Below are positions 33,599-45,492 of a DNA stretch of 64,000 nucleotides, one piece after another (within the stretch, counting starts at the first letter, position 1; each line of letters begins with the position of its first letter). The notes under the pieces were generated by a model. It was not told where the DNA came from and ran no database searches. It saw nothing but the letters and a program-made list of their open reading frames with translations. Source of the DNA: Mesobacillus sp. S13 (lineage in GTDB: Bacteria; Bacillota; Bacilli; Bacillales; Cytobacillaceae). The position numbers and the translations under genes are program-made. The stretch is taken from the NCBI RefSeq assembly GCF_020422885.1, contig NZ_CP084622.1:2375001-2439000 (forward strand), read 5' to 3'.

Positions 33599-34057
33599 AA
33601 GACAGGTTTGGGCCTTTAGGAAGGAAAGCTGTCACAAGTTCGCCTATCTTAAGACAGGTTTGAGTATTTGAGAAGGAAAGCTGTCATAAGTTCACCCATC
33701 TTAAGACAGGTTTGGGCCTTTGGGTAGGAAAGCTGTCATAAGTTCACCCATCTTAAGACAGGTTTGGGCCTTTGAGAAGGAAAGCTGTCATAAGTTCGCC
33801 TATCTTAAGACAGGTTCGGGCCTTTGAGAAGGAAAGTTGTCACAAGTTCGCCTATCTTAAGACAGGTTTGAGTATTTGAGAAGGAAAGCTGTCATAAGTT
33901 CGCCTATCTTAAGACAGGTTTGGGGGTTTTGAGAAGGAAAGCTGTCATAAGTTCGCGCATCTTAAGACAGGTTTGGGGGTTTTGAGAAGGAAAGTTGTCA
34001 TAAGTTCGCCTATCTTAAGACAGGTTTGGGCCTTAGAGAGGAATAGCTGTCAGAAAA
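33599..34057. repeat. Tandem array A: eight 52-53-bp units plus a partial ninth
   Basis: Unit starts (AAGACAGG) fall at 33599, 33651, 33703, 33755, 33807, 33859, 33911, 33964 and 34017: six periods of 52 and two of 53 bases, about 85-95 percent alike by eye. Each unit forms an inverted repeat CTTAAGACAG ... CTGTCATAAG (9 of 10 pairs) around a 23-base loop ending in GAAAG. There are no unique spacers and no long frame. It fills the gap between the small basic protein and the GH1 gene. Confidence 0.95.
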
Positions 34058-34182
34058 AGCCGGATTCTTCACAGGTTCAATGCTACCAGGCGAAAAGCCG
34101 TCGAAGTAAAACCGGAATCGTGCCGCATTCAGACATAATACGGAAGCTGTCCATCCAAAACAGTACGAGGAGGTTCACAACA

Positions 34183-35616
34183 ATGAAAACATATCAATTC
34201 CCTGAGGGTTTTTTATGGGGCGGTGCTACTGCGGCCAATCAAATTGAAGGGGGCTACAACGAAGGTAAGAAGGGCCTGAATGTCGCGGATGTTCTGCCAG
34301 GAGGAAAAGCAAGATACGATATTTTAACGAAACCTGGTTTCGATTTTGAAATCAAAACTGATCAATACTACCCGAATCATGAAGCGATCGATTTTTACCA
34401 TCGATACAAAGAGGATATTGCTTTGTTCGCGGAGATGGGTTTCAAGGCATTCAGGATGTCGATTGCCTGGACGAGAATTTTTCCGAATGGCGATGAGGCC
34501 GAGCCGAATGAGGAAGGTCTTCAATTTTACGACCGGGTTTTGGATGAATTGCGCAAGCATGGGATTGAGCCAATCGTGACCATTTCCCACTATGAAATGC
34601 CTCTTCATTTGGTGAAAGAGTATGGAGGCTGGCGTAATCGCCAGGTGGTGACATTCTTCGAAAGATATGCCAACACCATCTTAACCCGTTATAAGGATAA
34701 GGTTAAGTATTGGATGACGTTCAATGAAATCAATAGTGCTCTGGTGATGCCGATTAATGGCCTTGGTTTTTCGATTGAAAAAGAAGAGGACCGATACCAG
34801 CAAACATTTCAAGCATACCATCATCAATTAGTAGCAAGTGCCATTGCCGTTAAAGCCTGCCATGAAATTATTCCAAGTTCGCAAATCGGATGTATGATCC
34901 TTTTCGCGCCGGTTTACCCTTATGACAGCAACCCTGTAAATGTCCTGCACGCACTTCAGGAAGAGCAGATCTTCAATTATTTTTGCGGAGATGTCCAGGT
35001 GCGCGGAGAGTATCCTCCCTTTATGAATCGATACTTTAAAGAACACAATATTAAACTAGAGATTGAAGAAGGGGATTTAAAAATACTAAAGCAGGGCACC
35101 GTGGATTACGTCGGGTTTAGCTACTATATGTCACGCACTGAGAAAATTGAGAAGACCGAAGATGATGCATCAGAAGGAAATATCATTGGCGGTGTGAGGA
35201 ATCCATTCCTGGAAGTTAGTGACTGGGGATGGGAAATCGATCCGGTTGGATTGCGAATCAGTTTGAACAAACTATATGATCGCTATCAGATTCCGCTCTT
35301 TGTCGTTGAAAACGGTTTGGGAGCCTATGACAAAATGGAGAAAGACGGCAGTATAAACGATGACTATCGGATTGACTATTTGCGTGAGCATATTAAAGCA
35401 ATGGGCGAAGCAATTGAAGATGGTGTCGACTTGATGGGTTATACGAGCTGGGGATGCATCGATATGGTCAGCATGTCAACGGGCGAGTTCTCCAAAAGGT
35501 ATGGCTACATCTATGTGGACAAGCATGACGATGGCAGCGGAACTTTGGAACGGAGGAGGAAAAAGTCATTCTTTTGGTATAAAGATGTGATTAACACCAA
35601 CGGGGAAAAGTTATAG
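34183..35616 (+). CDS. Glycoside hydrolase family 1, probable 6-phospho-beta-glucosidase
   Basis: A 477-residue (beta/alpha)8 enzyme. The acid/base Glu is in [11 protein letters not shown] and the nucleophile Glu in [12 protein letters not shown]; the N-terminal [19 protein letters not shown] is diagnostic. [15 protein letters not shown] near the end carries the Ser, Lys and Tyr that bind a 6-phosphate, so the substrate is probably a phosphorylated beta-glucoside. No PTS permease is nearby. The open frame runs back to 33973 through the tandem repeats, but AGGAGG at 34168-34173 fixes the ATG at 34183. Confidence 0.92.
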
Positions 35617-35626
35617 ATAGTTTTTG

Positions 35627-35660
35627 AAGAGCTGCCAAAATAGTGGGCAGCTCTTTCTCT
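35627..35660 (+). terminator. Rho-independent terminator of the GH1 gene
   Basis: Arms AAGAGCTGCC and GGGCAGCTCTT with a T-rich tail 10 bases after the stop. Confidence 0.85.
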
Positions 35661-35701
35661 TTGAAAGAAATCACTAGCAATAAAAGGAAAACCGAAAATT
35701 T

Positions 35702-35725
35702 TGTCGAATAGTACCTTATTATAAT
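35702..35725 (+). promoter_or_regulatory. Candidate Spo0A box and -10 before the GNAT trio
   Basis: TGTCGAA (35702-35708, in TTTTGTCGAATAG) matches the Spo0A box and TATAAT lies at 35720-35725. The 13-base distance is too short for a normal -35, so binding would matter more than promoter shape. Chance matches to a 7-mer are expected. Confidence 0.25.
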
Positions 35726-35777
35726 CTAATCTTTTTAATGAATTTAGTTATCAGTGAAAAATTCAGGAGGAAATCAT

Positions 35778-43696: not shown

Positions 43697-43849
43697 TAGC
43701 AACACCTTTTGGAAGAGAATTGAATTTGATTCTTCTTAGTATCTTCAATTTAGGGTAAAAGATGAGTCCATTTAAAAATTTCTGCTGGCCATCATTTCTC
43801 CTTCTTTTGAACAGTAAGTATAAGTAGGGTAAAAGGAGGGGGAAAGGAA

Positions 43850-44662
43850 ATGATTTCTCTGTGGGATGAACAATCATTTTGGCTTGAAATGCTGCGTGAT
43901 CATGCTTATTTTGTCAGGGATGGGTTATCGCCAGCCGAGAGTGAGTATGTAAAAATCGCCAACCAATTCATCGGCTTATATGACAATCTTTTAACAAAGT
44001 TAAAAACAATTCCTCGTGATGCTGGTTACCAGGATAGTCAAATGATTGATTTTTCAAGAAGAGCATGGAAGCTTGCCAAAAATTATTATGATTTTGAAGG
44101 CGCTTTGCAATCGCTCCGTATCGACAATAAAGTCAACTTGAATTTGTCACCTACTTATTTAAACGGTACTTTAAGTGAAAATCAGGAATATTTACGGATA
44201 CTGAGCTATCTAGTAGAAGGCCAGGAACCAGTTCGGCTGTCAATTACACAAATAATGGATCTTTGGCTTGAAGATCAACTTGGTCATGCTGTGCTTTTCG
44301 AAAATCTGCTTGACCCTATTGAAGTGGGTGCAAACATGGCCGCGCAAGAATTCAAAAAAAGGTTCCAGTTATACATCGTCCAAAATCACCACTTAAAAAA
44401 TTATTTAAGGGTAAAACAGCCCGGCTTTGCGCGCCAGCAGGAATTTATCTATGAAGTAGGAAAGACTACACTTGAAATGAATCAGTTCATTAAGCAAATG
44501 GTTGCAAAGTACAAGGAAAATACCATATTAAATAAATCAAATCTCAGGTTCCTGGAACACCACTTCCCAGAAACATGTTACTTTCTTGCGAGTTTAAGTT
44601 ACTATGAACCAAGATTGCAGAAACTGGTTGGTAATTGTTCTTTATCCAAACCATCGTTTTAA
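43850..44662 (+). CDS. DUF2935 protein
   Basis: A 270-residue, all-helical cytoplasmic protein. The start SLWDEQSFWLEMLRDHAYFV and the internal EDQLGHAVLFENLLDP repeat the W/H/E pattern of DUF2935, a ferritin-like four-helix family found in Bacillus and Clostridium spore formers. Conserved His and Glu residues suggest a metal site. Ribosome site AAAGGAGGGGG. Function unknown; terminator follows. Confidence 0.85.
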   Translation: MISLWDEQSFWLEMLRDHAYFVRDGLSPAESEYVKIANQFIGLYDNLLTKLKTIPRDAGYQDSQMIDFSRRAWKLAKNYYDFEGALQSLRIDNKVNLNLSPTYLNGTLSENQEYLRILSYLVEGQEPVRLSITQIMDLWLEDQLGHAVLFENLLDPIEVGANMAAQEFKKRFQLYIVQNHHLKNYLRVKQPGFARQQEFIYEVGKTTLEMNQFIKQMVAKYKENTILNKSNLRFLEHHFPETCYFLASLSYYEPRLQKLVGNCSLSKPSF

Positions 44663-44710
44663 GAATAGGATAATCTGTATTACCGAAAAACAAGAACAAT
44701 GGATTAAGGT

Positions 44711-44740
44711 AACAACGGGTAAACGCCCGTTGTTTTTTTT
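44711..44740 (+). terminator. Rho-independent terminator
   Basis: AACAACGGG-TAAAC-GCCCGTTGTT with a long T run, 48 bases after the DUF2935 gene. Confidence 0.92.
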
Positions 44741-44873
44741 TTGAGGAAATTGAAATTAGTTTTGAAATCTAAATTTTGAAAAAATAAATAGCAATTTGTG
44801 AACATTATGTGACATTTATTTATAAATTCTGTTAATATTAAAATTACATACGAAAAAGTTGGGGGAATGAGAA

Positions 44874-45089
44874 GTGGGAAAACTTCTTTTGTATTTTTAT
44901 TTAATTGTTGGATTGTATTGTCTTGTAAGCGGATTCCTGGCATTGGCATCACACGGATTTCAGCATGCTGTCCTCTCGCTGTTCCTTGCAGCATTTAACT
45001 TTGCGATGTTTTCTTTATTCAGGAAAGAAGGCAAGCTGCCTCGTTTACGTTTGATTAAAGGACGAAAAAACGAGATGGCCAAGATTTAA
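44874..45089 (+). CDS. Small two-helix membrane protein
   Basis: A 71-residue protein starting with GTG behind GGGGGAATGAG. Two hydrophobic helices (3-25, 28-48) are followed by a basic cytoplasmic tail. TTTGTGAACATTATGTGACA upstream (near 44796) resembles redox-type TGTGA boxes, and a small role in respiration is conceivable given the downstream qox operon, but this is inference. Confidence 0.6.
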   Translation: MGKLLLYFYLIVGLYCLVSGFLALASHGFQHAVLSLFLAAFNFAMFSLFRKEGKLPRLRLIKGRKNEMAKI

Positions 45090-45122
45090 AAAAGCGTATT
45101 CTTTTATTCGGAGCAGAGAAGC

Positions 45123-45492
45123 TTCAGACAAAATCCCGGCCGTAGAAGCGAAAGATGTCTGAGTAGGAACAGGTTCGGACAAAATCGAAGACATTCAATC
45201 AAAAGCTGTCTGAAGTAGAGGCAACTTCGGACAAAATTGAAGACATTCAAACGAAAGTTGTCTGAAGTAGAGGCAACTTCGGACAAAATCGAAGACATTC
45301 AAGCGAAAGTTATCCCAAGTAGAGGCAACTTCGGACAAAATTTAAGGCATTCAAGCGAAAGTTGTCCGAAGTAGGGGCAGGTTCGGACAAAATCGAAGGC
45401 ATTCAAGCGAAAGTTGTCCGAAGTAGGGGCAGGTTCGGACAAAATCGAAGGCATTCAAGAACAAGTTGTCCGAAGTAGGAGCAAGTTCGGAC
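45123..45492. repeat. Tandem array B: seven 52-bp units plus a partial unit
   Basis: TTC(G/A)GACA starts fall at 45123, 45174, 45226, 45278, 45330, 45382, 45434 and 45486; after the first (51 bases) every period is exactly 52. The later units carry a perfect inverted repeat TTCGGACAA ... TTGTCCGAA around a 23-base loop ending in GCGAAAG. No unique spacers and no cas genes. The rest of the 45090-45596 gap holds only the qox terminator. Confidence 0.95.

Follow-up and report, generated by a model that had tools for sequence, protein, structure and literature searches.

Tandem arrays of a 52-base repeat family are mostly oriented with replication in Mesobacillus sp. S13

The window analyzed here is a stretch of 64,000 nucleotides, at positions 2375001-2439000 of the single 4,806,131-base contig that forms the genome of Mesobacillus sp. 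S13. It contains two tandem arrays, which were delimited with Tandem Repeats Finder: W1 (33597..34052, + strand; period 52, 8.7 copies), located between divergent genes, and W2 (45146..45493, + strand; period 52, 6.7 copies), located between convergent genes. The data showed that both arrays belong to a family of 52-base tandem repeats found all along the chromosome, and that the orientation of nearly all arrays follows replication and not the direction of the neighboring genes. With this direction and the exact spacing of their short paired motifs, the arrays look more like protein-binding DNA than like an RNA hairpin, and we tentatively propose that they are binding sites for a candidate DNA-binding protein, used as polar landmarks of the chromosome.

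To describe the family, we used a sequence-only model, R1, built from 56 units of this genome, six of them from W1 and W2. Each of the 13 full units in the window was matched by the model with an E value of at most 1.4e-6, in agreement with the first-pass annotation, which had assigned both arrays to one element family. At least 175 R1 matches were present in the genome, as counted from 150 scored candidates out of 2855 found at first look. A position matrix applied to fetched stretches characterized 40 arrays with 249 units; this set is incomplete, as two further arrays at 967 and 1411 kb, both on the + strand, lie outside it. None of the 40 arrays was located inside a gene called by a simple gene caller made for this analysis. 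By eye, three subfamilies could be distinguished, which were CTGTCAAAAG/CTTAAGACAG, CTGTCAAGAA/TTATTGTGACAG, and TTGTCCGAAGT/TTCGGACAA, and the short signals common to units were AAAG[CT]TGTC together with its reverse GACA[GA] in the same unit. Separately, a higher-order period of 156 nt (3 x 52) was seen within two arrays (L025:1443-1919 and L028:1468-1843), a sign of block duplication.

The units are composed of inverted half-sites, the commonest forms of which are AAAGCTGTC and GACAGGTTT, placed at alternating distances of 24 and 28 bp. In arrays with at least two units from this genome and its relatives, the distance from CTGTC to GACAG was 24 in 990 of 997 cases, and that from GACAG to CTGTC was 28 in 989 of 1024. 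Among 209 unit steps in the S13 genome, 201 were of 52, five of 51, two of 53, and one of 47 nt, and 718 of 733 steps in relatives were exactly 52. A step of 52 was the commonest or tied-commonest in 35 of 36 arrays of this genome, the remaining array, at 1615452, having one step of 51. When the consensus units of these 36 arrays were compared, differences fell in 58-59% of the linker columns (14.1 of 24), compared with 5.3 of the 28 half-site columns. The flanks of sites shared with relatives contained 118 gap openings per 1500 mismatches (87 flank stretches). The comparison with the flanks suggests that the length of the unit is held while the linker sequence is nearly free: the half-sites and their spacing are kept and the linkers have diverged. 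A length of 52 bp corresponds to five helical turns at 10.4 bp. In most arrays the two half-sites are consistently unlike (AAAG-CTGTC versus AAAC-CTGTC), so that an array has a direction.

This direction was compared with that of replication. The reference points were a protein starting at base 1, which by eye we take to be DnaA-like, and a dif-like site at 2,535,835, with two mismatches to the B. subtilis dif; the GC skew of the window was positive in all four steps of 16 kb. A census of diagnostic half-sites, independent of the position matrix, oriented 38 of the 40 arrays, and 36 of these followed replication (p = 3e-9 at 0.5, and 0.0016 versus a null of 75% leading-strand orientation, with arrays treated as independent). 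By the position matrix alone, 39 of 40 arrays ran with replication, with a margin less than twofold in three of them (W1, 2456857, and 2517371). An exact orientation-specific pattern had 75 matches on the forward strand, all before dif, and 60 on the reverse strand; among the 25 reverse matches listed, five lay before dif, and the remaining 35 should lie past 3.594 Mb, as the matches are sorted by position. The control, the same pattern read backward, had no matches. Four sites with a single unit (534918, 1154254, 2173650, and 4643966) were also oriented with replication.

The neighboring genes do not account for this orientation. The gene caller left five of the 40 sites without full neighbor context, and the neighbors of the other 35 arrays were co-oriented in 22 cases, convergent in seven, and divergent in six. 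All 13 arrays at convergent or divergent sites followed replication, as did three of four arrays at sites with both neighbors against it, which makes 16 of 17 where the neighbors do not both run with replication. The arrays at 1023729 and 3594003 followed replication against both of their neighbors, and that at 882519 did likewise by the matrix only.

Matches to the 52-nt-spaced pattern were found in 19 of 21 genomes of the genus, the S13 genome included, with as few as one match in G012 and five in G002. A dyad pattern searched across the order matched 12 of 397 genomes, including nine of ten sampled members of the genus; outside the genus it matched G341, a member of another family (46 + 89 matches), and one place each in G321 and G368. 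In the GTDB collection at least 120 stretches had matches, and the titles known for 80 of 120 included Mesobacillus selenatarsenatis, M. boroniphilus, Bacillus sp. ISL-37/41/45/55, a Bacillus metagenome-assembled genome, Cytobacillus oceanisediminis DE0166, and Chryseobacterium sp. ISL-80. Three contigs from other phyla (L063, L066, and L109) had one match each, which is about chance by our own estimate. The contigs titled Chryseobacterium sp. ISL-80 (L040, L104, and other JAGGQZ loci) align over kilobases with the S13 genome, and this title therefore looks wrong. Those titled C. oceanisediminis DE0166 (L055, L092, L107, and other NZ_VEEP loci) carry arrays at sites common with the S13 genome.

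The polarity in relatives was scored against dif, with the contig start assumed to be near the origin. Among the arrays listed, 18 of 18 in G009, eight of eight in G019, and 14 of 16 in G018 ran with replication, the last count becoming 15 of 16 should the origin be located before 4693 kb. G016, with dif on the other strand, was left out of this scoring; its dif-like site, G016:C1:1884600-1884627, is on the strand opposite to that in the other five genomes of the genus that were scanned. In G341, 40 evenly spaced 20-kb stretches were sampled (800 kb of 5.43 Mb); the GC skew of this genome changes sign at 0.33-0.44 Mb and again at 3.19-3.30 Mb. The sample contained 15 arrays with a period of 50-54, of which eight were of the AAAGGGAAT type, five of the CTGTC type, and two unclassified. 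All four callable CTGTC-type arrays agreed with replication, two of them narrowly, and the fifth was a tie. The eight arrays of the AAAGGGAAT type, at G341:C1:1747674 and seven further places, represent a second 52-nt family in this genome (AAAGGGAATCAAAC...), unrelated to the CTGTC type.

Many array sites are shared between species. The position matrix found 110 arrays at the 120 loci of relatives from the GTDB collection, and 68 of them shared their site with one of 27 S13 arrays, 46 with both flanks homologous. The orientation was the same as in the S13 array in 66 of the 68; where several species have an array at the same site, these arrays are not independent of one another. Another 35 arrays had no homologous flank among the fetched S13 loci, and seven were scored as empty in S13, five of them with one homologous flank only. 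Two candidate empty sites were rejected: L073, with homology in the left flank only, and L155, where the unit pattern is present at that place in the S13 genome. The orientation agreed with the local GC skew in 54 of 54 arrays at shared sites, 19 of 22 with no homologous flank, and three of four scored as empty in S13, once nine single-unit, 12 ambiguous, six short-locus, and three near-zero-skew arrays had been excluded.

Tandem 52-nt repeats of constant length in Bacillus have already been published, with selenatarsenatis, a Mesobacillus species, among the entries of Table 1, shared with boroniphilus and subterraneus (Subirana and Messeguer, PMC8161180, here and below in its accessible text). 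That report gives the signal AAAGCTGTC for alkalitelluris, together with a family TGTCTGAAGTaGCCTnGnGTTCGGACAG. The published repeats resemble those described here in unit length (51-53 nt), number of units (4-10 in most arrays), non-coding location, and partial conservation between strains, as well as in having several families per genome with short signals in common, often with their reverse. With at least four repeats of 51-53 nt, W1 and W2 belong to this class, as does the genome-wide set, in which 201 of 209 steps are 52 and seven are 51 or 53, no array lies within a called gene, and several families share signals that occur with their reverse in one unit. The published repeats were called species specific with few exceptions, whereas the half-site geometry observed here is common to the genus and G341. 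A term search of the accessible text of PMC8161180 found nothing on repeat orientation, and replication polarity of 52-nt repeats was not found in the literature searched, the coverage of which did not extend to Subirana and Messeguer (J Bacteriol 2020). The repeat class itself is known; as far as searched, its polarity and the sharing of half-site geometry and of sites have not been published. For the published repeats, neither a function nor the reason for the fixed length is known; a polarity independent of genes, half-sites that are exactly spaced across free linkers, and positions common to several species offer testable hypotheses for this unexplained class.

The first-pass annotation had proposed that compensatory changes in the arms of the window units indicate selection on the dyad itself, as for an RNA hairpin or a recognition site. 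On the alignment of the GACA/TGTC dyad, the 52-base unit, the 23-base loop, the GAAAG before TGTC, and the AAGT after it were borne out, with exceptions in W2 of TTATC for TTGTC in one unit and AAAAG for GAAAG in one unit; two 53-base steps in W1 were absent from that account. At arm position 4, the pair is indeed A-T in most W1 units and C-G in the W2 units with TTGTCCG, but the compensation does not generalize, as this position is unpaired in 28 of 35 arrays of the genome. The G-C of W1 versus A-T of W2 at arm position 10 is also real, and this change separates subfamilies (30 G-C, two A-U, and three unpaired among the 35 arrays). Arm position 5, which had been left out, is an A.A mismatch in W1 and G-C in W2, and is unpaired in 21 of the 35. 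The arms thus fail to pair in most copies at positions 4 and 5 and not in the GACA/TGTC core, which is nearly invariant across the 35 arrays. That the dyad is under constraint was supported by the pairing of 79.7% of cells, compared with 30-42% in slid versions. With one dyad taken per array in the 35 arrays, nine cells were changed on both sides versus 3.3 in shuffles, and none of 500 shuffles was as high, in a test in which the shuffle ignores relatedness and about three subfamilies are present. For a tighter, 24-bp dyad the paired share was 78.4% in 40 arrays, 35 of which were unpaired at columns 5-35, and its covariation score was above all 500 shuffles, again with relatedness uncontrolled. 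We read this covariation as the joint drift, subfamily by subfamily, of a binding half-site present in two copies.

According to the model that we propose, the likeliest of those considered but at less than even odds, the intergenic arrays would be clusters of double-stranded DNA recognition sites, in which each 52-bp unit bears an inverted pair of half-sites, AAAGCTGTC and GACAGGTTT or variants thereof, spaced in constant steps of 24 and 28 bp. A putative sequence-specific protein would probably bind or polymerize along the arrays on one face of the helix. The direction of the array, set in most arrays by the unlike half-sites, follows replication, and the bound arrays could then serve as polar landmarks in chromosome organization, segregation, or fork traffic. 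A more far-reaching version, which we regard as rather doubtful, is that this subset of the 52-nt Bacillus repeats forms a polar chromosomal address system of at least 40 intergenic sites, many common to species and each an array of half-sites in helical phase, and that a putative protein senses the direction of replication there or guides origin-to-terminus segregation. If such a protein were found, it would define a new polar chromosome-organizing system in Firmicutes.

Several observations weigh against this proposal. By the census, the arrays at 441136 and 2456857 point opposite to replication, and those at 882519 and 2517371 are ties. For 2456857 the census is preferred over the matrix, because the matching array in L056 also contradicts the matrix call; this array runs with its neighboring genes, and the orientation of the one at 441136 matches neither replication nor genes. 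In relatives, contrary cases were an array in G018 at 2150 kb, G018 matches at 2028 and 2837 kb (near-symmetric pattern, among the first 10 of 19), and a G011 match at 3319 kb (51-nt-spacing pattern, a hint of polarity only). In G007, which has two contigs and an origin that was not placed, a + array at 1376 kb lies just past dif, and + arrays at 1761 and 1823 kb lie among - arrays. Two of the 21 genus genomes, G008 and G015, had no matches to the 52-nt-spaced pattern, so the arrays would be dispensable or turning over. Copy number at the shared site 3490301 is two in S13 versus 3-18 in relatives, and homogenization within arrays could help to keep the 52-nt period. The figure of five helical turns is arithmetic and no test of binding on a helical face. 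No binding protein was identified, in a genome search that covered a single protein family, Y1_Tnp. Finally, the unrelated AAAGGGAAT family in G341 agreed with replication in only five of seven clear arrays, with one ambiguous, which limits the claim of polarity to part of the class: it covers the CTGTC family, chiefly that of Mesobacillus, and not 52-nt repeats in general.

An RNA reading, in which the arrays are transcribed as hairpins that act as a small RNA, protein sponge, or attenuator, is discussed in the accessible text of PMC8161180, and transcription of the 52-nt repeats of B. coagulans is reported there and in the part of PMC8625621 available. The covariation of both dyads above all 500 shuffles would be in keeping with it, with the reservation about relatedness given above, and the RNA folds of entire arrays are more stable than those of shuffles (z of -2.8 for W1 and -5.2 for W2), which would to some degree be expected from tandem inverted motifs. 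However, the RNAalifold consensus of 56 units has an energy of -0.1 kcal/mol, most arrays retain mismatches within the dyad, and orientation follows replication where the neighboring genes differ. A scan of 33000-46500 against Rfam gave three matches with E values up to 1, none above the gathering score and none within the arrays. Because of this flat consensus fold, the unpaired columns, the lack of an Rfam match, and the replication-linked orientation, we consider RNA hairpins very improbable, and of the two possibilities raised by the first-pass annotation the recognition site is the better fit.

Two further explanations would produce polarity from DNA processes. The arrays could be a neutral satellite that expands and contracts by replication slippage. 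In one orientation its hairpin-prone unit would persist or grow in number on the lagging strand, and in the other it would be lost, giving polarity without function. The great variation in copy number at one site between species, the 104- and 156-nt periods that show block duplication, and the imperfect hairpins into which the eight single units tested fold as DNA (z from -1.9 to -4.9) are consistent with it. On its own, however, it leaves the kept half-sites and spacing amid diverging linkers unexplained, the four single-unit sites are oriented with replication as well, many sites persist across species, and the unrelated 52-nt family of G341 has no clear polarity (5/7); we regard this explanation as fairly unlikely. 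We also think it unlikely that a single-strand mobile element (REP or IS200-like, with an HUH/Y1 transposase) inserted in the lagging-strand template and left the arrays as remnants that were then amplified in tandem, with the bias arising from the insertion mechanism. In its favor, IS608 and ISDra2 target the lagging-strand template (PMC6006769, accessible text), the would-be lagging-strand template is the strand along which the unit runs 5' to 3', and similar linkers occur at two loci, at 421 and 638 kb. The genome also has one Y1_Tnp match, a RAYT-like protein of 202 aa (L029:1294-1902, near 4.35 Mb), but its gene is surrounded by about four copies of a different repeat, TTCGACAAATTTCGGGTGGTGACAGGCACC, one exact and the others variants by eye, and in its 3.3-kb locus, which takes in 1.5 kb to either side of the gene, R1 gave no unit with an E value of up to 1. 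No empty site proved to be clean, the candidate L073 having one homologous flank, and 68 of 110 arrays of relatives are at shared sites. REP/BIME elements are high-copy extragenic palindromic motifs of alternating orientation and regular spacing (PMC2817692, accessible text), and the arrays are like them in these regularly spaced, alternating extragenic motifs. The REP/BIME tag, GTAG or CGTC, lies at one end of a palindrome; in the arrays, GTAG was noticed inside the dyad of one subfamily. They are unlike REP/BIME with RAYT in that the genome's one Y1_Tnp gene sits among another repeat, and a REP/RAYT link was rejected for this gene.

The proposed polar landmarks also invite comparison with known oriented motifs. 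AIMS, like KOPS, are oriented along the chromosome, and the arrays share with polar motifs of the KOPS and SpoIIIE recognition sequence (SRS) type the origin-to-terminus orientation, seen here in 36 of 38 callable arrays. The arrays are unlike them in being spaced by 52 bp at intergenic sites, whereas those motifs are of 8 bp. The octamer GAGAAGGG, which we take to be the SRS, was found once in 12,940 array bases, RGNAGGGS three times, and GGGNAGGG not at all, compared with two, 18, and zero in 63,172 window bases outside the arrays, forward strand; AGCGG occurred six times in arrays and 54 times outside (12.9 kb versus 63.2 kb). With no clear enrichment in the arrays, a link to SRS/KOPS/Chi motif content was rejected. 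In the accessible text of PMC2680272, KOPS are sequences of 8 bp that point, on each chromosome arm, from the origin toward the terminus; that of PMC5993296 describes AIMS as 8-bp sequences.

In the window itself, the position matrix and R1 placed eight full units of W1 at 33624..34041 and five of W2 at 45201..45460, all on the + strand. W1 belongs to the subfamily CTTAAGACAGGTTTG...GAAAGCTGTCAYAAG, with units of 52-53 nt that read approximately GAAAGCTGTCAYAAGTTCRCCYATCTTAAGACAGGTTTGGGCCTTTGAGAAG; each full unit begins with GAAAG[CT]TGTC, and five steps of 52 are followed by two of 53. W2 belongs to the subfamily TTGTCYGAAGTAG...TTCGGACAAAATC, with 52-nt units such as GAAAGTTGTCCGAAGTAGGGGCAGGTTCGGACAAAATCGAAGGCATTCAAGC. 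The inverted pair [CT]TGTC / GACA[GA] is at identical positions in the units of both arrays, and the half-site census favored the + direction by 17 versus 0 in W1 and by 10 versus 0 in W2. A plasmid collection searched with W1 only gave no match.

The gene caller and the NCBIfam/Pfam scans defined the neighbors of the two arrays. W1 is flanked on the left by an open reading frame of 73 aa (33201..33422, - strand), which had no NCBIfam/Pfam match, and on the right by a 6-phospho-beta-glucosidase of family GH1 (34183..35616, + strand). To the left of W2 is an open reading frame of 71 aa with a GTG start (44874..45089, + strand), which was read from the sequence after having been missed by the simple gene caller, and the 67 residues of it that were scanned (44886-45086) had no NCBIfam/Pfam match. 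To the right of W2 is subunit IV of cytochrome aa3 quinol oxidase, QoxD (45597..45896, - strand). A DUF2935 protein is encoded at 43850-44662, upstream of the W2 region.

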